From Pseudomonadota bacterium (lineage in GTDB: Bacteria; Oederibacteriota; Muellerivitia; Muellerivitales; Muellerivitaceae), in assembly GCA_021324075.1 (NCBI GenBank), contig JAJPJW010000109.1, positions 1-46,943 on the forward strand: a stretch of 46,943 nucleotides of DNA, in the 5' to 3' direction. Position numbers and translations under genes: made by a program. The notes beneath the pieces are model-generated. The model had not been told where the DNA came from. It did not search any database and was given only the letters and a program-made list of their open reading frames with translations. Shown one piece after another: positions 2,331 through 15,534 of the stretch (position 1 is its first letter; every line of letters begins with the position of its first letter).

Positions 2331-2359
2331 TTGACCGACCCCGGCCTTTCTTTTATATT
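2331..2359 (+). promoter_or_regulatory. Sigma70-type promoter for the MBL-CNB gene
   Basis: TTGACC (2331-2336) and TATATT (2354-2359) are separated by 17 bp. The predicted transcript begins near 2366 and has a leader of about 130 bases. Two 10-bp direct repeats AAAATGGCCT (2276-2285, 2315-2324) lie just upstream and could bind a regulator. Confidence 0.55.
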
Positions 2360-2495: not shown

Positions 2496-4712
2496 ATGCA
2501 CATCAGTTCCGTAGCCCCAGGCTGTTACCACCTGGAAGGCCCTACCAACAGCGCTTTGTTGGGAAGCCCGCCCGAAATCCTCAAAGCCCTCCTGAAACAA
2601 AAGAAGAAAATCCCCCACGTCGGGATTTTGCCCGACCTTTCCCATAAAAACGGCGTTTCCCAAATGGCCTTCGAGTTCCTGGGCTACTGGTTTTTGTTTA
2701 TCGACCAAGGCTACCAGTTGGGAAAGAAGTTCCGCGTTTTGGGAACGCGCAAGATGTGCGAGAAACTTTACGATATCCTTCGAATCACCCTTTTAGGACC
2801 CAGCCGGGTCGAAATGAAGAAGTGGGGATTGGGCAAGACACGGATTGACTCCCTGGCCGACATGGCCGAAGGCATGGCAATCCGTAAAAACGGCCAGGTC
2901 CAACCCATCGAGGATTTGTTCGAATTCGTCCATCTGCCTGATGAGGAAGGGGAAGTGTGGGTGCCGATCTTTTCCGATTCCAAGGATTACCTGATCCGGC
3001 GAATGGGGGGGAACCGCTACGAAGTCTCGGCCAAGGGTGAAATCCATTCCCTCAACCTGAATTTTGAGGGGGAACAACTGCCCCCGCTGGTGGATCTCAC
3101 GGGCGAGGTGGAAAAACCCGAAGCCCTCCGCTTGAAGGTCCTGGGATCCTATACGGGCTTCGACCCGGACGGCCCCACCACGGGCATGCTGCTGTGGGTG
3201 AACGGAAACGGGCTTTTGGTCGATTCCCCCGCCGGTATCAGCAAATACCTCAAGCAAGTGGGCGTGGCCAAAGACCGGCTCGCGGGCATTATCCAGACCC
3301 ATGTCCACGACGACCATTGCGCCTTAAGCGAATTGATGCTTTCCGAGCACGCCTTTACGATCATCACGACGCGGGAAATTTACGAGTGCACGGTTTTGAA
3401 GGTGGCCCACATCATCGATGAGCCCGTGGATGTGGTGAAATCCATGATGAAATTCATTGAAATCATCCCGGGGAAAAACTACCGGATGTTCGGGGCGGCT
3501 TGGGAATTCTTTTACACGGTGCATTCCATTCCAACGATCGGTTTTCGGGTCACCGTGCCCGACGAAAAGGGGGAGCCTTGCACCCTCCTCCATTCCAGCG
3601 ACCTGGATCACTTCAAGGGAATGGAACAGCTGGTGAAGGCGGGAGCCGTCAGCCAGGAGCATTTCGACCGCATGAAAAACCTGGTCCGGGGGGACGAACG
3701 ACTGGCCATGATCGATGCCGGAGGCGGCCTGATCCACGGCGAACCTTCCGATTGGGACGCCACCATCGCCAAGAACCCCAAAACCGAGTTCCTTTTTTAC
3801 CACGTGAACCCGTCAAAGGTCGACGCGTCCAAATACCAGGTGGCGCGGCCCGGATGGGGGAAGACTTTCCTAAAAGAGCGGCAGTTCCCCCAATCGGTTT
3901 ACACCGGGGTGCTCCAAACCTTGAAGCTTTTCGAGGTGAAGGATCCCAGTTGGATCAACATCCTGTTTTCCCTGGGCGAAGTCATGGAACTGCCCAACAA
4001 GTACGAGATTGTGCGAAAGGGCCAGGAAGGCGATTCCTTTTACTTCATCCTTTCGGGGACCCTGGAAGTCCTGGACCCGGAGAACAAGAAGGAACCGCTT
4101 TTGGCGACCTTGGAAAGCGGGGATTTCTTCGGTGAAATGTCGATCATCAACCGCTCCAAGACCAACGCCACGGTGGTGGCCCGCACCCCCGTCATCCTCT
4201 TCAAACTGGCAGGGGATTTGTTCCTGGAATTCGTGGAGAAGAACGACCTCAAGGAAAGTTTTTCCAGCCTTTGGAAGAGGCGTCCCCTCATTTCTTCCGT
4301 GGCCCTCTTCCGGGACCTGGATCCCACGGCGAAACACGAAATTTCGCTTTTGGCCAAAAGCCAGACCTTTGCCAAGGAAGAAATGATTGTCCGGCAGGGA
4401 AGCAAGACGGAGGACTTCTACATCATTTCCACCGGAAGGGTGGAAATTTTCCGCAAGAACGAGAACGGGAAGGTCACTTTTTCCACCGAACTCAAAGCCG
4501 GTGACTTTTTCGGGGAAAACGTGGCGATGGGATATGCGGACAAACGAAACGCAAACGCCCAAGCCCTGACCGAAGTGACCACACTTGTCATTTCTTCAAA
4601 AGAGATGCGGGATTTGGCGAAAAGGATGCCGATCCTCCGGCATAAACTGCATGTGATCATGAAGAGCCGGGGAGTGCCTGAGGAGGCGCTGGAGAAAGCT
4701 TTGTCGCTTTGA
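2496..4712 (+). CDS. Metallo-beta-lactamase fold protein with two C-terminal CNB domains
   Basis: 738 residues. The start at 2496 follows a GAAGGAG ribosome-binding site; an upstream in-frame TTG (2457) has none. The first 200 residues are of unknown type. An MBL-fold domain spans about 205-480, with H269-V-H-D-D-H274 and later candidate metal ligands in a TVHSIP segment, HSSDLDH and FYHVNP. Two CNB domains follow (about 490-595 and 615-725), each with an FGE phosphate-cassette motif. In CNB1 the usual ligand-contacting Arg is replaced (Thr556 by my alignment); CNB2 keeps an Arg at CRP-like spacing (DKRNANA). No signal peptide is visible, so it is probably cytosolic. The MBL family includes hydrolases and class II cyclic phosphodiesterases; a nucleotide-regulated hydrolase is inference and the substrate is unknown. 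A second CNB gene follows 81 bp downstream. Confidence 0.85.
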   Translation: MHISSVAPGCYHLEGPTNSALLGSPPEILKALLKQKKKIPHVGILPDLSHKNGVSQMAFEFLGYWFLFIDQGYQLGKKFRVLGTRKMCEKLYDILRITLLGPSRVEMKKWGLGKTRIDSLADMAEGMAIRKNGQVQPIEDLFEFVHLPDEEGEVWVPIFSDSKDYLIRRMGGNRYEVSAKGEIHSLNLNFEGEQLPPLVDLTGEVEKPEALRLKVLGSYTGFDPDGPTTGMLLWVNGNGLLVDSPAGISKYLKQVGVAKDRLAGIIQTHVHDDHCALSELMLSEHAFTIITTREIYECTVLKVAHIIDEPVDVVKSMMKFIEIIPGKNYRMFGAAWEFFYTVHSIPTIGFRVTVPDEKGEPCTLLHSSDLDHFKGMEQLVKAGAVSQEHFDRMKNLVRGDERLAMIDAGGGLIHGEPSDWDATIAKNPKTEFLFYHVNPSKVDASKYQVARPGWGKTFLKERQFPQSVYTGVLQTLKLFEVKDPSWINILFSLGEVMELPNKYEIVRKGQEGDSFYFILSGTLEVLDPENKKEPLLATLESGDFFGEMSIINRSKTNATVVARTPVILFKLAGDLFLEFVEKNDLKESFSSLWKRRPLISSVALFRDLDPTAKHEISLLAKSQTFAKEEMIVRQGSKTEDFYIISTGRVEIFRKNENGKVTFSTELKAGDFFGENVAMGYADKRNANAQALTEVTTLVISSKEMRDLAKRMPILRHKLHVIMKSRGVPEEALEKALSL

Positions 4713-4793
4713 AACTCTTGAGTTAAAATTCCAGACAAGCCATTCTTATGGTGGTCCTGTTTTGGACCGATAATCCACGCCGGGGGAGGCCTC

Positions 4794-5273
4794 ATGGTCA
4801 TCCGAAAAGAGTCGACCCGATCCAATTTCCTGAAAGAGGTGAACCTGTTTGAGGGCCTGGACAACAAGGTCATCAACCAGATTTTCCGGCTGGGTTTGGT
4901 GCAGAACTTCAAGAAGGGCGACCTCGTTATTCGGGAAGGGATGCACGGGGGAAACCTCCATATCCTCATCAACGGCAAGGCAGAGGTTTGGAAGAGCGGG
5001 CCAAAGGCAAAGGGCAGGGGCCAGCAGCTGGCCAAGCTCCAACGGGGTTCGGTGTTCGGGGAAATGAGCGTTTTTGACGGGGCGCCCTATTCCGCTTCGG
5101 TAAAGGCGCTGGAAGACTGCGATATCCACATCATCCGCGGGTCGGATTTCGAGAATTTCCTCCAAGAAAATCCACAAGCCGCCTACGGCATTTTCCGCAC
5201 GCTCCTGAGCTCCATTTCCAACCGCCTGCGGCGCACCAATCTGGCCCTTTCCGTCATGGAAGGCGGCAAGTAA
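4794..5273 (+). CDS. Single-domain cyclic nucleotide-binding protein
   Basis: 159 residues, essentially one CNB (CAP_ED-type) domain: a beta-roll with LFEGLDNK at the start, VIREGMHGGNLHILINGKAE and VFGEMSVFDGAPYSASV in the phosphate-binding cassette, and a C-terminal helix. There is no helix-turn-helix, so it is not a CRP-type transcription factor. The conserved Arg of the cassette is replaced by Tyr (APYSAS), as in non-binding or altered-specificity members. Start ATG follows GGGGGAGG. It lies 81 bp after the MBL-CNB gene and probably shares its transcript, so it may be a regulatory partner. Ligand and partner are unknown. Confidence 0.85.
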   Translation: MVIRKESTRSNFLKEVNLFEGLDNKVINQIFRLGLVQNFKKGDLVIREGMHGGNLHILINGKAEVWKSGPKAKGRGQQLAKLQRGSVFGEMSVFDGAPYSASVKALEDCDIHIIRGSDFENFLQENPQAAYGIFRTLLSSISNRLRRTNLALSVMEGGK

Positions 5274-5316
5274 CCCCGTTTATCCCTGGGCATGATCCTA
5301 TCTTCGGGAGGCCGGC

Positions 5317-5520
5317 GTGGAACTGTCGAAAAAAGAAGCTTACAGCCTTTTGGACGAGCTGTTAAAAGCGGAGCCGAAACTGGTCAAGTGGCGGCAAAAA
5401 GGCGTCGGCATCGTCGTGGCAAAGGAAACCTATAAAGCCCTCAGCGAATCGGACCATCCTAAAAAGGATTTTGTGCTGCAGGGTGTCCTGGTGGAGCGCC
5501 GGGGAAGGCTCCGGTTTTGA
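5317..5520 (+). CDS. Small hypothetical protein, 67 residues
   Basis: It starts at GTG 5317, five bases after GGGAGG (5306-5311), and sits 43 bp behind the CNB gene in the same orientation, so it is likely the last gene of that operon. The product is charged and Lys-rich: a helix with LLDELLKAEPKL leads to a short beta-like part with GVGIVVAKE and VLQGVLVERRG. There is no signal peptide or membrane segment. I do not recognise the family. The good ribosome-binding site and conserved spacing support a real gene. Confidence 0.6.
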   Translation: MELSKKEAYSLLDELLKAEPKLVKWRQKGVGIVVAKETYKALSESDHPKKDFVLQGVLVERRGRLRF

Positions 5521-5589: not shown

Positions 5590-7911
5590 TTAATGGATCA
5601 GCAGGATGCGTTTTGTTTTCCTGCTGAAAGGTTCGGTCAGGTAGAAAATGTAGACCCCGCTGGCGCAAACATCCCCGTATTTGTTCTTCCCGTCCCACTG
5701 GTAGGATTCATCCAAAATGCCGGTCATGGTTTTTTCCGACAGGGTTTTGATGTGTTCGCCCGCGGAATTGAAGATCTTCAGGCTGTAGTCCCCCGGATAT
5801 TTGCTGTAGGCCACATGGATGGAAACCGTGTCGTTGGCGGGATCGAGGATGTTATGGTCCACATCGAAAACGTCGATGTCGGGGATCGTGGCCGTCGGCG
5901 TGGCCGTGATAGTGGCCGTCGGTGTGATGGTGGCGGTATTCGTAATAGTGGCGGTGGGCGTAGCCGTCGTGGAGTTGGTAGGGGTGCCGGTCGGAGTGGA
6001 AGTGGGGGTGATCGTCGGCGTCAGGGAGGGTGTGGCCGTGGCCGTGTTGGTGGCGGTGACCTGTGGGGTGGCCGTGGGCGTGTTCGTCGGGGTATTGGTG
6101 GCGCAACCGGAAATAAAGGTCGTCACGGCATTGGACGTGACCGGCGCAGCGATGGAGCTGGAGTTGATGACGGCCGCATTGGTGATCGGGTTTCCACAGG
6201 CGCCCGCCAGGCCCCACCAACTGACCGCATCGGAAGAGCCGCAGGTGGAACCCACATTCCATGTAATGGTTCCTCCCGACAGACTGCCCCCGTTGCCCGC
6301 ATTCTGGTAGGTCACGTTGCCCGGGACATTGTCGGTGATCACGGGGGATGCCACCCCGCCCGTGTTGAAGATCATCAAGTTGTCGAATTCCACCGGCCCG
6401 CGGTTGGCCTGGAAGCCCGCCCAGCCCGCTAGGGTGGGTACGTTCGGGCCGGTGTAATTGATGTCCCAAGCGCCGGGTTCCAGGCTGCCTTTTGGCCAGG
6501 CCTTCATCAAAACCTGGCCCGAGCAAACCTGGACCTTCACCGTGTACCAAACGGGGTTCGCGGGCGTCCCTTCCTGGACATTGCCCATGTTCGGGGGCGA
6601 GTTGAAGGCTACATTGCCCCCGCCAATGTCGTAGGCGATGACGTTACTCGAGGAGCTGTTGCTGCCTTTTTGCCCCGATAGGCGGACCTGGTAAACGGTC
6701 GTCACCCCCGCGTTGACGGTGATGTTAAAGTTAAAGACTGCGTCGAAATTATTGCAGTCGTTTGAATCGACCATCATGTCCACGATATAAACGCCGTAAA
6801 GGATGGGCGTCATGGAACTGTCCTGGAGGTAAGGGTAGGTGGTGCAGGTCGAGCAGGACTGGGTTTCCTCCAGGTAACCCGGAGTGGCGCTCCAGGCGCA
6901 GCCGGTGGAGGACCAGGAGGGGGGGATAATCCCGTTGTCAAAATTCTCAAACTCCTCCAATTGCAAGCCGGTGTTGGTGTAATCCATCACATAAGTAACG
7001 GGGGAGCCCGCCGCCACACTGGCCGGGGCGCTCTTGGTAATCACCAGTTCGGGGACTGAAACCCCGACTTCCGCGGCGTTCGAGGTGGTATTGACCTCGG
7101 TGCTCGTGGCGCTGGCCGAATTGCTGAATACCTGTCCTGCGGTTGCCGTGGGGCTTAGGGTGGCCAGGAATGAAACGAAGCCCACCTGGGGAGATGCGAT
7201 ATTGCCCAGGTTCCAGGTGATGTTTTGTCCGGAAGCTATTCCGCCGTTATAAACCTGGGAGATGGTGAATTGGGACGGGACGGCATCGGTAATTTGGACG
7301 TTATGGACATTGGACGCATTGTAGTTAATGACAAAAAGCACCTCTCCACCGGGATCGGCGGTAGATCCCTGGGCCACCTTATTCAAGGTGATATAAGGTG
7401 CCGGAAGGGGAACGGTGAAGGAGATGGCTGCCTGATAGTCCACGTTCACTGTTGGGTTCATATAGGCGCCACCGCTTCCCCTCATGCCCACAATGACGTA
7501 ATAAGTAAAACCGGGAGTAAGTCCTGGGGGAATCGTAATGTTGGTGCTGTAGTTATTGCTTCCTGAGCTGGCAGGCCCGACATAACAGCCCCCGTTTACG
7601 TTACCTGTTTCCGGAGCGCAACCATCCCCTAAAACGACCCATTGATTGGCGGTGCCGGCGGCTTGGAGGGTATTGGTATTGCTGACGACGACGATCGCAT
7701 CCGGGTTGGTGCCGGAGGCGTTGGGAATAGTGTAGGTCCACGCAATGTTGACGGTTTGACCAGGGGATGGATTGGACGGGGAGATAGCCAGGTTTGTGAT
7801 GGAGGTGACGTTTTGCTGGGCAAAAGCCAAACCAAGGGTTAAGGCCCAAAATCCAAGAACGAGTTTAAACCGATTTTTACGGGCTTTATTTTTTATGATG
7901 GAAAAAGAAAT
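5590..7911 (-). CDS. Secreted adhesin-like protein with DUF11-type repeats, non-canonical start
   Basis: At the N-terminus a signal peptide (VLGFWALTLGLAFA, cleavage before QQN) is plain, but it lies upstream of the only usual start in frame, TTG at 7830, which would remove it. No in-frame ATG, GTG or TTG occurs between the stop at 7966-7968 and 7830. I place the start at ATT 7911, nine bases after AAGGGG; ATC or ATA slightly downstream are alternatives. Counting from the TTG as residue 1: an Ig-like N-terminal domain (10-140), a DUF11-type repeat (145-255), a second such repeat split into 259-288 and 491-575 by a 200-residue insert (289-490) resembling a concanavalin-like sandwich, a TPT linker (576-650) and a FlgD-like C-terminal module (651-746, with ASGVYIF and ending ILLIH). 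Such repeats are typical of cell-surface proteins. No catalytic residues are recognised. Confidence 0.8.
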   Translation of the reverse strand: MSFSIIKNKARKNRFKLVLGFWALTLGLAFAQQNVTSITNLAISPSNPSPGQTVNIAWTYTIPNASGTNPDAIVVVSNTNTLQAAGTANQWVVLGDGCAPETGNVNGGCYVGPASSGSNNYSTNITIPPGLTPGFTYYVIVGMRGSGGAYMNPTVNVDYQAAISFTVPLPAPYITLNKVAQGSTADPGGEVLFVINYNASNVHNVQITDAVPSQFTISQVYNGGIASGQNITWNLGNIASPQVGFVSFLATLSPTATAGQVFSNSASATSTEVNTTSNAAEVGVSVPELVITKSAPASVAAGSPVTYVMDYTNTGLQLEEFENFDNGIIPPSWSSTGCAWSATPGYLEETQSCSTCTTYPYLQDSSMTPILYGVYIVDMMVDSNDCNNFDAVFNFNITVNAGVTTVYQVRLSGQKGSNSSSSNVIAYDIGGGNVAFNSPPNMGNVQEGTPANPVWYTVKVQVCSGQVLMKAWPKGSLEPGAWDINYTGPNVPTLAGWAGFQANRGPVEFDNLMIFNTGGVASPVITDNVPGNVTYQNAGNGGSLSGGTITWNVGSTCGSSDAVSWWGLAGACGNPITNAAVINSSSIAAPVTSNAVTTFISGCATNTPTNTPTATPQVTATNTATATPSLTPTITPTSTPTGTPTNSTTATPTATITNTATITPTATITATPTATIPDIDVFDVDHNILDPANDTVSIHVAYSKYPGDYSLKIFNSAGEHIKTLSEKTMTGILDESYQWDGKNKYGDVCASGVYIFYLTEPFSRKTKRILLIH

Positions 7912-7964
7912 CGTTTTAAACCCCTTTTGAAATTTTAATACGGATTCGGATGGCGCCCTTAAAA

Positions 7965-7970
7965 ATTATA
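7965..7970 (-). promoter_or_regulatory. Extended -10 promoter for the adhesin gene
   Basis: On the reverse strand the sequence reads TGGTATAAT, a perfect -10 with the extended TGn element; the -35 is poor. The transcript would start near 7958, about 47 bases before the proposed ATT start. This limits where translation can begin. Confidence 0.5.
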
Positions 7971-8339
7971 CCATCTGCTACTGTTGGATCATCTGGATTC
8001 GAGTCCATGCGCGTGAATCCATGAAAGCCCTTTCTTAAACAAAAACAAAAATGTTTAATGTCTTGAGCGGATTGTTCCGGGTTAAACGGCCCCAACTTTT
8101 TTGCTATTTCTGGGGAAGTCCTCTAGCGGGCGGTATGGGGTTTTGGGGAGAGGTAGTGTCGGGATTTATCAACAGGTGTTGTTAGTGGAAAAGGTTTCGT
8201 TTTTTTTGGCGTCCTGATATGGCAATCCTGGAAATCGGCAAGCTGAGGTAAAACAGCTTGTGCGCCCACGCCATCCTGATGGGAACTGGCGGTGAGTGGT
8301 CCGTGCAATCGGCGATTAAAATTGGCAGTTCAAATTTGC

Positions 8340-8367
8340 TTGGACTTATTCCTTCTTTCCCTATAAT
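8340..8367 (+). promoter_or_regulatory. Promoter abutting a start codon (leaderless layout)
   Basis: TTGGAC (8340-8345), a 16-bp spacer and a perfect TATAAT (8362-8367). Only six bases separate the -10 from ATG 8374, so the transcript would begin at or beside the start codon. No ribosome-binding site is present. Confidence 0.5.
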
Positions 8368-8373
8368 GCCGCC

Positions 8374-8556
8374 ATGCTTAACACGCCCTTTCAACTCCGC
8401 GACATGTTGGTTCACAAAACAATCCAGACAGTCGGAATGGTGGTCTTTGTGGATTCCAAGCACCAGCGATACCGTGTCTGTATCGACGAGGACATGCCAC
8501 TGGAAGAGTGGGCTTTCCACGAAGTCGAGTTGTTCCAAAAAAAATCCGCTTCTTAA
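8374..8556 (+). CDS. Small hypothetical protein, 60 residues, probably leaderless
   Basis: Start ATG 8374 sits six bases after a TATAAT box. The product begins MLNTPFQLRDMLVHKT, continues with a beta-rich VGMVVFVDSKHQRYRVCID stretch and ends in an acidic segment with EEWAFHEVELF. The alternation looks like a small SH3-like beta-barrel, but I do not recognise the family. A competing, longer forward frame (8258-8590) starts farther upstream with no promoter or ribosome-binding site. Confidence rests on the promoter and the protein-like composition. Confidence 0.5.
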   Translation: MLNTPFQLRDMLVHKTIQTVGMVVFVDSKHQRYRVCIDEDMPLEEWAFHEVELFQKKSAS

Positions 8557-8884
8557 TTTCCGAAATAAGTTCGAAAATTTCCTTTCTTAATGGATGACAG
8601 ACATTAAAAAATAATTCGGTTCACGTGCCGATAAAAGTCACACGTGAAACTTTTCCTGCAACTTCTTGGCAAATCTAAAACCAAATCTTGATTCCCGGCT
8701 AAATTCCAATGCCGATTCGAACTGTGATACATTTATCTTCGAATTCATTTCAAAATAGCAGGGCTTGCCCGATTCTAATGTCGTAATGCGGGTTGAAGAT
8801 TTTAATTTGGCCGATTGCCGCTTTCTCATGAGAAAGCGTGTAATTTCATCGCAGTTTGTTTCTATCTCAACCTTTAGGTTTTGA
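8557..8884. other. AT-rich upstream region of the glycosidase operon
   Basis: 328 bases clearly richer in A+T than the flanking genes. It contains two CACGTG hexamers (8622-8627, 8641-8646) and the 20-bp palindrome at 8819-8838. No convincing -35/-10 pair was found. A 63-codon reverse frame (8638-8829) is not convincing. Confidence 0.5.
8819..8838. promoter_or_regulatory. 20-bp perfect palindrome, candidate operator
   Basis: CGCTTTCTCATGAGAAAGCG is a perfect palindrome ending 46 bp before the glycosidase start. Length and position suit a dimeric repressor such as a LacI- or TetR-type protein, but no such regulator gene is in the window. Confidence 0.5.
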
Positions 8885-11800
8885 ATGACTTTTCATCAAA
8901 CTGCGCCAAAAACCGTTTTTTCACCCTTAAATCAATTTTGGGCGTTCCTGTTTTTGGCCTTTTGTTTGTGCCATATACCCGTCGACGCCGCGACTAATAT
9001 CCCATCCCAGGCCTGGAGCCGGGACATTAATGCCGGCGGTTATATTGACGGCGCGCCTATCGGCGGCTTCGGCGCAGGGACCCTCTCTTGGACTTTCGCT
9101 GGGAATTTTTACCTCGATCGGCTCAATATCGCCAGCAGCACCCAGACCACGGATACAAACTGCCATTTCTATATGTACCAGAAGCTTTCGGGGCAGGCGG
9201 CCGTCATGAAGATGCTCAATGCCGCTACCCTGGGATCGGGAGAGGCGACCTACTATTCACTTTTTCCCAAGGCCTGGGTGGACTATTACGGATCGACTTT
9301 TCCTCTTGATACCAAGGTCACCCAGTTTTCCCCGATCCTTCCGAACGACTACACCCATTCCACATACCCGGAAGGTGTTTACGAATGGGATGTGACCAAC
9401 AGCCAGGCTGTCTCCTGTGATTTCGCAGTGATGCTGACCTTCGATAATACTTTCGGGGGAAACAGCGCCTCGGTTACGACTTCCGGCAACGACGTGGGCC
9501 TTATCCTCAACCGTTCCGGCAGCAGTGCCACCGCCGCGAACCAGGGCCAGTTCACCCTGGCCGCCCAGGGTGGGGCGGGGGTTTCGGTGACTTACGAGTC
9601 CGCTGCATCGGTGGCCGCGCTCCAAACCGCCTTCAACACGGCCGGACTCCTGGCCAATACGGCAGGTGCGAACAACATTGGCGGCGTGGCCTTCAAGGTC
9701 AGCCTGGCGCCAGGCCAATCGGTGAAAATCCCCATCATCCTGGCCTGGGACATCCCCCTGGCCCAGCCGGGAACGGGAGCCCTTTGGTACAGGGAATACA
9801 CCAGGACTTACGGCCGGTCGGGTTTGAATTCAGCCACCATCGCTTTCGACGCCCTTTCCAACTATTCCACCTGGGAAGCCTCACTGGACAGCTGGCAGGC
9901 CAGCATCCTGACTGGTTCCTACCCGGACTGGCTCAAGCAGATGCTTTTCAACGAGCTTTACTATTACTTCACCGGTGGAACGCTCTGGGAAGCAGGACAA
10001 TATGGCTCCACTTCCTACGATCCGGGCCCCGACCTTTTCAGCAGCCTGGAGAGCTATGTCTACCCCTTTTACGGCACCTCGGATGTCCGATTTTACGGTT
10101 CCTGGCCCCTGGCCCTGCTCTGGCCCAACGTCGACAAGCAGGAGGTCAAGCAGTTCTGCGACAGCGTGACCACCGGTTCCATGGGGGTGCCCATGCCGGC
10201 GGCCATCGGCACCTGCGCCCACGATATCGGCAGCACGAACGACGTGTTTACGGCCTGGAACGACTATACCTACCGGGATTCCACGACCTGGAAGGACCTC
10301 AATTCCAAGCTGGTCCTGATGGTTTACCGGGCCTGGGAGCTGGGCGGCAAAACCGACACCACCTTTCTCAACTATTGCTGGCCCGCAGTCCAGACGGCGA
10401 TGACGAAGGTGCACAGCCAATGCGATGCCAACGGCCTGCCGGCCTCCAACGGCATCGACCAGACCTACGACGACATGGGGCTTTACGGGGACACGGCTTA
10501 TTGCGGCAGCTTGTTCCTGGCGGCCTGTGAAGCGGCCCAGTCCATGGCCACGGCGGAAGGGAACAGCACCCTGGCCAACACCTACCAGTCCTGGCTGACG
10601 ACGGGCCAAGCGGGTTTCGCCAACCTATGGAACGGCACCTACTACAACATCGACAACGGCGCCACCGACACCGCCCAAAACCGCATCATGAGCGACCAAT
10701 TATCCGGGGAATGGTACGCCAAGGCTTTGGGCCTGCCCGGCATCATTTCCGACGCAAATGCCAACAGCGCCTGGCAGAAGATCCACGACAACAACTGGGC
10801 CAAGTTCGATTCGGGCGCCCACGGCGTGGTCAACGTCATGACAGCGGCCGGGGCCATCGACACCACCTGGCCCCAAAGCCAGGAAGCCTGGACCGGGGTG
10901 GGCTGGGGGGCCGTGGCGGGCATGGTGCAGCAAGGCATGACCACCCAGGCCACCGACGCGGGCTACAGCATCTACAACAGCGTTTGGAACCTGGGCCAGT
11001 GGTGGTTCCGGACCCCTGAAGCCTGGCAGACGGGCCTTACCAATATGAGGGCGCCTTACTATATGAGGGCTAACTGCATCTGGGCCGTGAAACACGCCTT
11101 TGACATTGCCCCCGCCCCTTGCGGGGCCCTCACCTGTAGCCCCACGCCGACCTCCACCGCCACACCCCTCCAGCCCAGCGCCTGCGCCTCCCCCGTGCTT
11201 CGGGTCAATTGCGCCGGAGGCCAATATGTCTCGGGCGGCATCACCTGGGTGGCCGACCAGGCTTATGCCACTGGAAGCTGGGGTTATGTGAGCGGCACGG
11301 CAGCGACCTCCATCACCAACACCATCAACGGGACGACCTCTCCCGGGCTTTACCAGACCGAGCGGTATGGAACCCCCCTGGAGTACAAATTCACCGTCCC
11401 CAACGGCAATTACGAACTGATCCTGCGGTTCGTGGAGCAGCATTGGACCTCGGCCAATTCCAGGATTTTCAGTGTGGCCGTCAACGGCAATACGGTGATT
11501 TCCAACTTGGATATTTATGCCAAGGTGGGGCAGTACTATGCCTATCCCCAGACCTTCGTGGTCCCGGTTGCCACGGGGTTGATTGACATTGTCGGCACGG
11601 CCACGGTGGATAACGCGGAAATCACGGGGATCGACATCCTCAATAATACGGCCTGTACGCCTACGGCTACGCCGACCAACCCGTTCACAGCCACCTCAAC
11701 CCCCAGTCCCACAACCAGCTTGACCCCCACCGCCTCCCCGACCTTGACGGCGACCTACAGCCCCACTTCCAGCCCCAGCCGCACGGCCACTCCAACAGTT

Positions 11801-12691
11801 CCGAACAGCCCAACCGCCACCCTCACGCCCACTGTTTCCCAAACGCCGACCACGACAGCGAGTGGAACGCCCAGTTCCACCCCTTCCAACAGCCCAACGC
11901 CTTCAGCGACCTTCTCTCCGACGGAGACGCCCAGCCGGACCCCAACGGCCTCGGCGACCTCCAGCCCCAGTTTTACCCCCAGTCCAACGGCTTCCTTGAC
12001 ACCCTCAGGAACCCCCTCCGCTACCCCCACGAAGACCGTTTCATCCACCCCAACCAGTACGGGCACCCTGACCCCTGTTCCGACCGCAACGCCAACGGCC
12101 ACGGCTACTTTGACGCCCAGTTCCACCGTTACTTCCACTCTTACCCTGACGCCGACGGAAACTCCTTCCTTCAGCCCTACGGCCTCGCCGACCGCGAGCC
12201 TTACGGGGACTCCCACCTTCAGCCCAACGGCTAGTTTGACGGCCACTCTTACTTTCAGCCCTACAACGACCTCGACTGCCACCCAAACAATGACCCCGAC
12301 GCCCAGCCCCACGGCGACTTTTACCATGACGGCCACCTCCAGCCCTTCCTTGACACCGGTCTTTACCGCCACGCCAACCGTGACTTCACCGGCGGGTTCC
12401 GCGCCGGTTTTGATCGGCCCGCCCTATCCCAACCCCGTTTTGGGTGGGGAATCCGTAAACGTCCCCATTCAGGGGTCCGGAACGGTAACCGTGAATTGGG
12501 ACGTGTTTACGACCGCCTTCCGAAAAGTCGCCCACGGAAGCTCCATTTTCACGAATGGGGGAACATTCCAATGGGGTTTGACGGACCTTGCCGGCAAACC
12601 TGTAGCCTCCGGGCTTTATTACTTAAGGTTGGAGGTTGCAGCGGATTCGGGCACAGTCCATAGAACCCTTAAAATTTTGGTAATCCGATGA
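8885..12691 (+). CDS. Secreted GH116-like glycosidase with malectin-like domain
   Basis: 1268 residues. A signal peptide (FWAFLFLAFCLC, cleavage near VDA-A) precedes a GH116-type region (about 38-745), recognised by IGGFGAGTLSW near the start, LESYVYPFYGTSDVRFYGSW with Glu389 as candidate nucleophile, and DQTYDDMGLYG (Asp525-Asp530) supplying the candidate acid/base. GH116 includes retaining beta-glucosidases and glucosylceramidases; the natural substrate cannot be read. A malectin-like domain (about 770-920; LRVNCAGGQYV, YQTERYG, RIFSVAVNG) may bind carbohydrate. Then come a Thr/Ser/Pro linker (925-1165) and the shared C-terminal module (1172-1268; [21 protein letters not shown]), probably for surface attachment. 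Start ATG has only a weak AGG upstream. The stop overlaps the next start (ATGA), so the two glycosidases are translationally coupled. A 20-bp palindrome lies upstream. Confidence 0.85.
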   Translation: MTFHQTAPKTVFSPLNQFWAFLFLAFCLCHIPVDAATNIPSQAWSRDINAGGYIDGAPIGGFGAGTLSWTFAGNFYLDRLNIASSTQTTDTNCHFYMYQKLSGQAAVMKMLNAATLGSGEATYYSLFPKAWVDYYGSTFPLDTKVTQFSPILPNDYTHSTYPEGVYEWDVTNSQAVSCDFAVMLTFDNTFGGNSASVTTSGNDVGLILNRSGSSATAANQGQFTLAAQGGAGVSVTYESAASVAALQTAFNTAGLLANTAGANNIGGVAFKVSLAPGQSVKIPIILAWDIPLAQPGTGALWYREYTRTYGRSGLNSATIAFDALSNYSTWEASLDSWQASILTGSYPDWLKQMLFNELYYYFTGGTLWEAGQYGSTSYDPGPDLFSSLESYVYPFYGTSDVRFYGSWPLALLWPNVDKQEVKQFCDSVTTGSMGVPMPAAIGTCAHDIGSTNDVFTAWNDYTYRDSTTWKDLNSKLVLMVYRAWELGGKTDTTFLNYCWPAVQTAMTKVHSQCDANGLPASNGIDQTYDDMGLYGDTAYCGSLFLAACEAAQSMATAEGNSTLANTYQSWLTTGQAGFANLWNGTYYNIDNGATDTAQNRIMSDQLSGEWYAKALGLPGIISDANANSAWQKIHDNNWAKFDSGAHGVVNVMTAAGAIDTTWPQSQEAWTGVGWGAVAGMVQQGMTTQATDAGYSIYNSVWNLGQWWFRTPEAWQTGLTNMRAPYYMRANCIWAVKHAFDIAPAPCGALTCSPTPTSTATPLQPSACASPVLRVNCAGGQYVSGGITWVADQAYATGSWGYVSGTAATSITNTINGTTSPGLYQTERYGTPLEYKFTVPNGNYELILRFVEQHWTSANSRIFSVAVNGNTVISNLDIYAKVGQYYAYPQTFVVPVATGLIDIVGTATVDNAEITGIDILNNTACTPTATPTNPFTATSTPSPTTSLTPTASPTLTATYSPTSSPSRTATPTVPNSPTATLTPTVSQTPTTTASGTPSSTPSNSPTPSATFSPTETPSRTPTASATSSPSFTPSPTASLTPSGTPSATPTKTVSSTPTSTGTLTPVPTATPTATATLTPSSTVTSTLTLTPTETPSFSPTASPTASLTGTPTFSPTASLTATLTFSPTTTSTATQTMTPTPSPTATFTMTATSSPSLTPVFTATPTVTSPAGSAPVLIGPPYPNPVLGGESVNVPIQGSGTVTVNWDVFTTAFRKVAHGSSIFTNGGTFQWGLTDLAGKPVASGLYYLRLEVAADSGTVHRTLKILVIR

Positions 12692-15534
12692 GAAAATTTG
12701 GGTCGAAAGGATCCGTCCTAAGGATTTTCCTCCTGGCTCTTTTAAGTGGAACCGGGGCTTGGGCCCAAAGTGTCAACGGAACCACCGGCAATTTCTCCTT
12801 TCCCCAAAACCGGGACAACCCCTTTGGCTTCCATTCCTCCCTCTACAACAATGCCGACGTCCTGGCGGCCTATAACAAGTGGTACGCGGACTGCGTGACC
12901 TCCACTGGAGCGGGAGGGTTTCTGCGCGTGCAGCGTCCGGACGAGCCTGGCTTGAACCACAATTCCACGGTTTCGGAGGGAATCGGTTACGGCATGGTCA
13001 TCGCCGTTTACATGAACGACCAGAACCTCTTCGACAACCTGTGGAAATACGAACAGCTCCACCTGGATGGGAATGGGCTGATGAACTGGTATATCGACGC
13101 CAGCGGCGCCACCGACGGCACGGGGGCGGCCACCGATGGGGACGAGGACATGGCCTGGGGCCTGCTGATGGCGGCCAAACAGTGGGGCGGAAGCGGGAGC
13201 CTGGGAACCAGCTACCAAAGCCTGGCAGTCTCGCAGATCAACCGGCTTTATGCTTATATGAGCGCCAATGGAATGATCGCCGACGGCGGGGACGGGTTTA
13301 CCCCCATCAATCCTTCTTATTTCGCGCCGGCCTATTACCGGGAATTTTCCGCCGCGGCACCGGCCTCTGAAACGGCAGGCTGGCTGACCATCGTCGCCAA
13401 TTGCTATTCGGTGCTGAATGGCAACCTATCCCAGGGTTACGGCAACGCCTCAAACGGGCTTGATTCGGCTTGGTGCACCAGTGCAGGCGTTTCCACCAAT
13501 ACCAACAGCGCCCCCTGGGATTACCAGTACGACGCCTGCCGCACGCCCTTCCGCATCGTGCAGGACTACCTTTGGTTCGGCAACAGTTCGGCCCAAACCT
13601 ACGCCACCAAGACCAGCAATTTCTTTTCCGCCATCGGGGCGGTTTCCATCGTGGACGGCTATTTCCTGAACGGCAACCCCGACCCCCAGTCGCCGGTGCT
13701 CCCCAACAGCCCCAGCCCGGTCAGCCAATCGGCAGCCTTCGTGGGGCCGGCCGGCTGCGGCGCCATGGTCAGCCATAATTACCAGCAATATATCGACGAC
13801 ACCTACACGGACCTGGTGGGCACCAAACTCCTCCAGGGCGGGTATTACTATGACGAATCCTGGACCGTCATGTCCCTTCTGATGCTTTCGGACAATTTCC
13901 TGGATTACAACCTCTATAGCGCCCCCACACCCACGCCTACCCTGTCGTCCTATGCGCCCCAGACGATCCGGGTCAATTGCGGGGGGCCCCAATTCGTGGA
14001 CAGCCAACCGGCCACCTGGGCCGCGGACCAGCAGTTCACCGCGGGGAGCTGGGGCTATGACGCCACGAACAAGGGGAGCACTTCCACTTATACCTCCACC
14101 ATTACCGGGACGTCCTTCAACCAACAAACCCTCTACCAGACCGAGAGGTGGGGGAACCCCACCTACCATTTCACGGTTCCCAACGGTTATTACCAGATCC
14201 TTTTTAAATTCTGTGAAAACTACGATCCGGATTCCCACGCGGGCGGCCGGGTTTTCAGCGTTACTGCCGCGGGAACCCCCGTCGTATCGAGCCTGGACGT
14301 TTATACCGCCGCGGGGGCGGAACATAAGGCTTACGATGTTCCGGTCACTGTGGTGGTAACCACCGGCCAGTTGGACATTGTGTTCAGTTCGACAGCTGAT
14401 ACTTCACAGGTCAACGCCATCCAGGTGATTCGATTAGTAACCCCCCCCACCCCAACGGCAACTATCCCTTGGACGGTTACGCCCACCAATACCCCCAAGG
14501 GGGCGACCCTCACCCCGACCGGGTCCCCCACGGCCACTCCGACCTTGCCGTTCACCTTCACCCCCAGTGCCACGAGTTCCCGGACGGCGACCCTGACGCC
14601 AACACCCACCGCCAGTTTGACGCCGACTTTGACGGCAACGGCCACCCCTTCCCAAACACCCACGGCATCACCCAGTTTCACGCCCAGCTTGACAGCCACC
14701 CTTTCGGCTACAGGAACCCCCAGCTTTACCCCCACGAGAAGCCCGACCGCCACCCTCACCAGCACGGGCACATTGACGCCGGTTCCGACCAGTACTCCCA
14801 GCGCAACAACGACCAATAGTCCTACCCAGACGGCCAGTTTTTCACCGACTTCAACGGCCAGCCTTACCCCGACCTTTTCCCCGACTAGGACGGCTTCTTC
14901 GACCGCTACATCCTCCGCAACCTTCACGCCGACAGCCAGCTTTACTTCCACCCCGACCCCTACGGCTTCCTTAACGCCCAGCGCCACTCCTTCGGGAACC
15001 CCGACGAAAACCACGACTTTCACAATCACGCCTACGGGTACCTTAACCCCGGTTCCGACGGATACCCCGTCAGCCAGCCCCACCCTGACCGCCACCAAGA
15101 CCTCTACCCCATCGGCCATCTTAACCCCCAGCCGGACCCCGACCTTTTCATCCACTTGGACGGCTTCCCCCACTGCAACCCTTTCCCCCACGGGAACACC
15201 GGTGGCCTCGGCCACCTCCACAGTTACGGCGACTGTGACGGTTGCGTCCAATTTTTCGCAGATTGTCTTTCAATTACCTTTTCCAAACCCCTCCTATGGG
15301 GCGCCTATTGTCCTTCCGGTGCAGGTCCCCGGCGGTTCAACGGTTGATTGGGACGTCTTTACCATTGCTTTCCGGAAGGTAGCTTCCGGGAGCCTGGGTC
15401 CCAATGGCATTGAGTGGAATTTGAAAGACAAGAACGGTGCCGATGTTTCCAGCGGCCTTTACTATTTGAGAGTTGAAGTCAAGAACGGCCAACAAACGGT
15501 CCGTAAGGTTTTCCGGATGCTAGTCCTTCGTTGA
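12688..15534 (+). CDS. Secreted GH8 endoglucanase-like enzyme with malectin-like domain
   Basis: 948 residues. A signal peptide (LRIFLLALLSGTGAWA-Q) precedes a GH8 catalytic domain (about 30-415). SEGIGYGM supplies the expected proton donor Glu97, ATDGDEDMAWGLL the conserved substrate-site Asp residues, and YDACRTPFR the expected base Asp282, matching the inverting cellulase/chitosanase-type GH8 pattern. A malectin-like domain (about 423-580; IRVNCGGPQFV, YQTERWG), a Thr-rich linker (583-850) and the C-terminal module (859-948; FPNPS, FTIAFRKV, VSSGLYYLR) follow in the same order as in the upstream gene. It overlaps that gene by four bases. Together they suggest extracellular attack on a beta-1,4-glucan followed by release of glucose; this is inference. 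Confidence 0.9.
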   Translation: MRKFGSKGSVLRIFLLALLSGTGAWAQSVNGTTGNFSFPQNRDNPFGFHSSLYNNADVLAAYNKWYADCVTSTGAGGFLRVQRPDEPGLNHNSTVSEGIGYGMVIAVYMNDQNLFDNLWKYEQLHLDGNGLMNWYIDASGATDGTGAATDGDEDMAWGLLMAAKQWGGSGSLGTSYQSLAVSQINRLYAYMSANGMIADGGDGFTPINPSYFAPAYYREFSAAAPASETAGWLTIVANCYSVLNGNLSQGYGNASNGLDSAWCTSAGVSTNTNSAPWDYQYDACRTPFRIVQDYLWFGNSSAQTYATKTSNFFSAIGAVSIVDGYFLNGNPDPQSPVLPNSPSPVSQSAAFVGPAGCGAMVSHNYQQYIDDTYTDLVGTKLLQGGYYYDESWTVMSLLMLSDNFLDYNLYSAPTPTPTLSSYAPQTIRVNCGGPQFVDSQPATWAADQQFTAGSWGYDATNKGSTSTYTSTITGTSFNQQTLYQTERWGNPTYHFTVPNGYYQILFKFCENYDPDSHAGGRVFSVTAAGTPVVSSLDVYTAAGAEHKAYDVPVTVVVTTGQLDIVFSSTADTSQVNAIQVIRLVTPPTPTATIPWTVTPTNTPKGATLTPTGSPTATPTLPFTFTPSATSSRTATLTPTPTASLTPTLTATATPSQTPTASPSFTPSLTATLSATGTPSFTPTRSPTATLTSTGTLTPVPTSTPSATTTNSPTQTASFSPTSTASLTPTFSPTRTASSTATSSATFTPTASFTSTPTPTASLTPSATPSGTPTKTTTFTITPTGTLTPVPTDTPSASPTLTATKTSTPSAILTPSRTPTFSSTWTASPTATLSPTGTPVASATSTVTATVTVASNFSQIVFQLPFPNPSYGAPIVLPVQVPGGSTVDWDVFTIAFRKVASGSLGPNGIEWNLKDKNGADVSSGLYYLRVEVKNGQQTVRKVFRMLVLR

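Follow-up and report, generated by a model that had tools for sequence, protein, structure and literature searches.

The locus and its genes

We have analyzed a stretch of 46,943 nucleotides, here termed the window, in which three genes lie in succession on a common strand (Table 1). The first encodes a protein of 738 aa, starting with ATG and preceded by GAAGGAG. Pfam cNMP_binding matches two stretches of this protein (E = 1e-40, whole protein) and one stretch of the 159-aa product of the second gene (1.2e-20). The third ORF, starting with GTG, is a real gene, with orthologs at 58-72% identity in related genomes. Among named genomes, the close relatives of the locus are MAGs of candidate division FCPU426. 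The intergenic gaps are 81 bp (738-aa to 159-aa gene) and 43 bp (159-aa to 67-aa gene). The original prediction of an HVHDDH metal motif and two CNB domains on one chain, with a third CNB protein 81 bp downstream and a gene of 67 residues behind it, is borne out by the ORFs and the Pfam matches.

Table 1. Features of the locus, with positions in the window.
Feature	Position	Strand	Details and basis
Promoter-like TTGACC-17-TATATT	2331..2359	+	Consensus match only; ahead of 738-aa gene
738-aa protein: N-terminal pseudo-MBL-like domain, MBL hydrolase, CNB1 and CNB2	2496..4712	+	ORF, Pfam, AlphaFold2
N-terminal domain, residues 1-190	2496..3065	+	AlphaFold2 secondary structure, ELAC2 fold matches, weak profile self-match
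MBL catalytic domain, residues 206-460	3111..3875	+	HVHDDH (269-274), H343, D369, D407, H414, H436
CNB1, residues 467-584	3894..4247	+	PKA-like spacing; Thr556 replaces PBC Arg
CNB2, residues 599-722	4290..4661	+	CRP-like PBC, Arg684 at E674+10
Promoter-like TTGTCG-17-TAAAAT	4701..4729	+	Consensus match only; ahead of lone CNB gene
Lone 159-aa CNB protein	4794..5273	+	ORF, Pfam; unlinked neighbour, no conserved unit
Conserved 67-aa protein	5317..5520	+	ORF, orthologs; unlinked neighbour

A scan of 3.4 kb found two promoter-like sites against 1.2 expected, and these two precede the 738-aa gene and the lone CNB gene. The second would give the lone CNB gene its own transcript, and is weak evidence for separate transcripts.

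On either side of the locus lie genes for secreted proteins with Thr/Pro/Ser repeats (1-2214, and 5590-7830 on the minus strand), and the latter protein weakly matches CHU_C, a type IX-like C-terminal signal, below the cut-off. Beyond these, two overlapping genes (8885-12691 and 12688-15534) code for a GH116 beta-glucosidase and a GH8 enzyme. Both enzymes carry a malectin domain, and the GH116 protein has a Thr/Pro-rich repeat linker as well.

The metal site and its probable chemistry

The match of the 738-aa protein to Lactamase_B (Pfam PF00753) lies just under threshold, at 21.4 bits against a cut-off of 22.7. Across an alignment of 27 proteins of the family, with 20-88% identity to the 738-aa protein, PF00753 is matched by 25 members and PF12706 by 21 (E ≤ 0.01). 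Within this alignment H269, H271, D273, H274, H343, D369 and H436 are invariant, together with D243. Conservation of the ligands over this range of identity shows that HVHDDH is not a chance occurrence, and the site is not one devoid of metal ligands: the di-metal set is complete.

We compared a profile of the MBL part with solved structures. The matches included YhfI (8e-15), Apyc1 (2e-14 and 9e-14) and ELAC1 (1e-10), and RNase Z was also matched. The alignment with Apyc1 (7u2r) covers the whole MBL domain, with H414 of the IDAGGGxIHG motif paired with the His of Apyc1 GKGEVHTT. The succession of D/E407 and H414 resembles the HEAT...HST relay of RNase Z. The closest MBL relatives are phosphodiesterase-type enzymes (YhfI, Apyc1, RNase Z and PhnP), and together with the features at D/E407 and H414 they point to hydrolysis of phosphodiesters, rather than the chemistry of a lactamase or lactonase, as the predicted activity.

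Models of individual enzyme classes were not matched at their cut-offs by the 738-aa protein. There was no match to PDEase_II (Pfam PF02112), and the scores for RNase Z (TIGR02651, 23.9 bits) and Apyc1 (PF23023, 15.6 bits) did not reach the curated cut-off of 292.95 and the gathering cut-off of 50, respectively. PF23023 is matched by 13 of the 27 family members at E ≤ 0.01.

The N-terminal domain and predicted structure

AlphaFold2 with the family alignment gives a confident fold for the whole 738-residue chain (pLDDT 90.3, pTM 0.90), and likewise for residues 1-462 (pLDDT 93.8, pTM 0.93). Fold matches to the N-terminal and MBL domains comprise YhfI, long-form RNase Z (ELAC2), RNase Z, Apyc1, PhnP and MBLs from Brucella, the last being structures solved with GMP or AMP. 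The query-normalised TM-score is highest for ELAC2, at 0.58 compared with about 0.41 for single MBLs.

The strand and helix order within residues 1-190 parallels the first half of an MBL, with the metal ligands absent. In the AlphaFold2 model the order found in residues 230-316 is repeated in residues 10-127, and hhalign aligned the N-terminal and MBL halves in the register expected, with a weak match (E = 0.03, 30 columns). From the ELAC2 TM-score, the repeated order and the weak match in register, residues 1-190 are likely to form a second MBL that has degenerated, a layout known from long-form RNase Z.

The CNB domains and their phosphate binding cassettes

The CNB part of the model matches the tandem CNB regions of PKA-R and PKG. 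The PBC of CNB1 (FFGEMSIINRSKTNAT) keeps the Glu and has Thr at the position of the Arg (E+9). That of CNB2 (FFGENVAMGYADKRNA) also keeps the Glu and has Arg at E+10, which is the spacing in CRP; it lacks the Gly that accompanies the Arg in PKA-type domains, as does CRP. In the lone CNB protein (FGEMSVFDGAPYSAS) the Arg position is taken by Tyr. This is the distribution of the Arg that had been read from the window. Binding of cNMP by the 738-aa protein is nevertheless not assured, since the canonical Arg is gone from CNB1 and the accompanying Gly is missing from CNB2.

The Glu and the Arg at CRP spacing are present in CNB2 of 6/6 FCPU426 orthologs. Distant members outside FCPU426 and a Bacteroidota-like set usually carry the Arg in CNB1 (examples are L014, L043, L048, L052, L055, L057, L059 and L060), and in the Bacteroidota-like members it is absent from both CNB domains. 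A Cytophagales locus, L020, groups with the latter set by sequence. With the Arg in CNB1 of the distant members and in CNB2 of FCPU426, the sensing role seems to have shifted between the two domains across lineages. The original prediction of one sensing and two scaffold-like CNB domains, with CNB2 as the sensor, may therefore be right for the lineage of the window, but it fails as a general rule because elsewhere CNB1 usually carries the Arg.

Four members (L045:229-2841, L046:1489-4101, L047:1489-4089 and L049:1486-4098) have a C-terminal hemerythrin domain (PF01814), and neither of their CNB domains has a canonical PBC Arg. These may represent a form of the hydrolase that senses oxygen or redox state.

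Throughout the subfamily of the lone CNB protein the PBC Arg position is occupied by Tyr or Phe, and this invariant aromatic residue is accompanied by a conserved GGxLHI motif. The subfamily is a candidate sensor of a ligand other than a cNMP. It has two paralogs in the source genome, one in the window (4794-5273) and the other at C21:6514-6975.

Distribution of the family

A profile search with residues 1-460 found the N-terminal and MBL unit in at least 26 of 384 genomes, most of those compared being MAGs; the count is a lower bound as few candidates were scored per genome. CNB domains are present in 24 of these 26 genomes, and in 25 of the 27 aligned proteins. Most of the proteins are 710-870 aa in length, and one family of genomes has forms of about 480 aa without CNB domains. 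The 738-aa gene has orthologs in five further genomes: four belong to the same taxonomic family (81-88% identity), and one is an FCPU426 genome of another family (54% identity). No plasmid-borne relatives were found, and the gene looks like an ordinary chromosomal one, inherited for the most part vertically. A search of open-licence PMC papers turned up no account of bacterial MBL-CNB-CNB proteins, and a 2007 survey of CNB domains does not mention this fusion.

Gene neighbourhood

The lone CNB gene has orthologs (66-86% identity) in related FCPU426 genomes. In these relatives the orthologs of the lone CNB and 67-aa genes are always on different contigs from the 738-aa gene, even within the genus, and two contigs bearing the latter (14 and 48 kb) extend for several kb on both sides without the other two. 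There is thus no conserved operon of the three genes, which are neighbours only in the window species, and the conserved pairing that the original prediction called for is not borne out. Genes for Thr/Pro-repeat secreted proteins flank the 738-aa gene on those two contigs, as they do upstream in the window. In a genome of the same genus the lone CNB gene is followed by genes for an oxidoreductase, an unknown protein and thioredoxin, an order seen in the window too. Both loci are flanked by repeat-rich genes for secreted proteins, and a rearrangement between these plausibly produced the local adjacency.

Clustering of the genes at about 30 loci revealed HD-GYP-type genes beside three members and otherwise no partner shared by the whole family. 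The HD-GYP-type genes encode HD-domain proteins with GAF or receiver domains, and adjoin the MBL-CNB-CNB gene at L095 (8972-10186 on the minus strand, beside 6834-8972), L096 (5258-6496 on the plus strand, beside 6496-8637) and L087 (5831-6925 on the minus strand). The two genes overlap or abut in two genomes of one genus.

Cyclic nucleotide context of the genomes

It is correct, though misleading, that the window contains no cyclase, for there are 12 class III cyclases elsewhere in the source genome. The lone CNB protein has 14 matches there, itself included. No class II PDE (PF02112) or CpdA match was found in the source genome, and PF02112 has no match in its taxonomic family. A class I PDE was not matched either, a result of little weight as the model matched no control genome. 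Class II PDEs are present in 18 of 44 genomes of the phylum and in none of the six that carry an MBL-CNB-CNB gene; this exclusion (p = 0.03) rests on two lineages and is without phylogenetic correction. A genome of the same family that is 99% complete (G006) has seven cyclases and neither an MBL-CNB-CNB gene nor a class II PDE. Outside the phylum, all 20 family-bearing genomes have a class III cyclase, compared with 201 of 319 others (Fisher p = 1.4e-4, ignoring phylogeny and genome size), and the association may reflect genome size.

A proposed function and its alternatives

A ligand-gated metallohydrolase, as originally predicted, is supported in three ways: the di-metal site is complete, the tandem-CNB fold is predicted with confidence, and the MBL is of phosphodiesterase type. 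The operon or complex included in that prediction is not supported. With somewhat better than even confidence, we consider the 738-aa protein to be an MBL-type cyclic nucleotide phosphodiesterase set by the binding of cNMP to its own two CNB domains. We infer its activity, substrate and ligand, and the direction of its regulation. The substrate would be cAMP, cGMP or another cNMP. Binding of cNMP to a CNB domain (CNB2 in the lineage of the window, by the Arg criterion) would activate hydrolysis by the MBL, generating negative feedback on the cyclase output as in GbpA and GbpB of Dictyostelium. The degenerate N-terminal MBL may pack against the active one or shape it.

Against a cyclic nucleotide phosphodiesterase it must be set that the MBL relatives also include RNases and other hydrolases. 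A cNMP-gated enzyme of the RNase Z or PhnP type, whether a nuclease or another phosphodiesterase, with RNA, DNA or a phospho-metabolite as its substrate, would account for RNase Z being among the best profile and fold matches, for the ELAC2-like layout of pseudo-MBL and active MBL, and for the resemblance of D/E407 and H414 to the RNase Z relay. The best profile matches are to YhfI and Apyc1 rather than RNase Z, however, and the cyclase-rich context also fits a phosphodiesterase of cyclic nucleotides; we regard this alternative as unlikely. We rejected a housekeeping tRNase Z as unlikely, given the score far below the cut-off and the separate RNase Z-like protein of 310 aa encoded in the source genome (C57:28925-29767), which is also present in relatives without the MBL-CNB-CNB gene. 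The hydrolase might instead carry CNB domains that no longer bind cNMP, and serve as a scaffold or sense something else, such as redox state or another small ligand. The loss of the Arg from CNB1 in the window family, and from both domains in the Bacteroidota-like members, four of them with hemerythrin, is consistent with this. It is an improbable account given the Glu and Arg preserved in CNB2 of every FCPU426 ortholog and the Arg in CNB1 of most remaining members.

Two further explanations invoke partners. An operon or complex of the 738-aa and lone CNB proteins is suggested by the common strand and short gaps in the window, but is very improbable: the lone CNB gene has a promoter-like site ahead of it, and we rejected the arrangement on finding the orthologs unlinked in every relative. 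A Pycsar-like anti-phage effector, in which an MBL nuclease is switched on by cCMP or cUMP, might be entertained because the CNB parts match PADLOC PycTIR profiles and the MBL is akin to Apyc1. The PycTIR matches cover the CNB domain only, though, and clustering and inspection of the flanks, with part of the neighbours profiled, recognised no neighbouring PycC or other cyclase in the window or at about 20 family loci. Together with the ordinary chromosomal pattern of the gene, this makes such an effector extremely improbable, and we discarded it.

Comparison with known systems

GbpA (PdeD) and GbpB (PdeE) of Dictyostelium are described as class IIb enzymes in which two CNB domains lie C-terminal to a catalytic MBL, and are reported to be activated by cGMP or cAMP (PMC11988041). 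The 738-aa protein has the same order on one chain, with the di-metal ligand set intact. It is bacterial whereas they are eukaryotic, the comparison being one of described architecture, and its CNB1 lacks the PBC Arg while CNB2 is CRP-like. By analogy, a mode of action like that of GbpA and GbpB is the best-supported for the 738-aa protein. Apyc1 and YhfI provide the closest solved MBL domains by profile and fold, and Apyc1 cleaves cyclic mononucleotides, but both are stand-alone proteins of about 250 aa with neither CNB domains nor an N-terminal pseudo-MBL. ELAC2, the top fold match, shares the degenerate N-terminal and active C-terminal MBL on one chain; it differs in processing tRNA and in having no CNB domains.

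More tentatively, it is possible though doubtful that the MBL-CNB-CNB proteins constitute a family of self-gated MBL phosphodiesterases, widespread among bacteria and hitherto undescribed, with tandem MBL domains (one degenerate) and tandem CNB domains, and are the prokaryotic counterpart of GbpA and GbpB. Sensing would have moved between the CNB domains, or to hemerythrin, according to lineage, and in some lineages the substrate and the regulatory ligand would no longer be one molecule. How the signal is switched off in cyclase-rich bacteria that lack a recognised cyclic nucleotide phosphodiesterase is a question to which the MBL-CNB-CNB family is a candidate answer. If so, it would offer a bacterial system for a phosphodiesterase directly activated by cNMP through CNB domains, a design so far characterised in slime mould, and a set of natural variants in which the Arg used for sensing has moved or been lost.

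Other FCPU426 families also link an MBL-type phosphodiesterase, the class II cAMP PDE (PF02112), with a CNB protein having a canonical PBC, but as separate genes. The two lie in a conserved cluster in the five genomes examined (L113:1312-4876, L114:1072-4707, L115:357-3939, L116:866-4432 and L117:1385-4500). In each cluster the CNB gene comes first. It is followed by a gene for a protein of about 565 aa, which matches no Pfam model and seems to bear a membrane segment at its N terminus, then by the class II PDE gene and, except in L117, by one for an acetyltransferase. A sigma-factor-like gene lies downstream.
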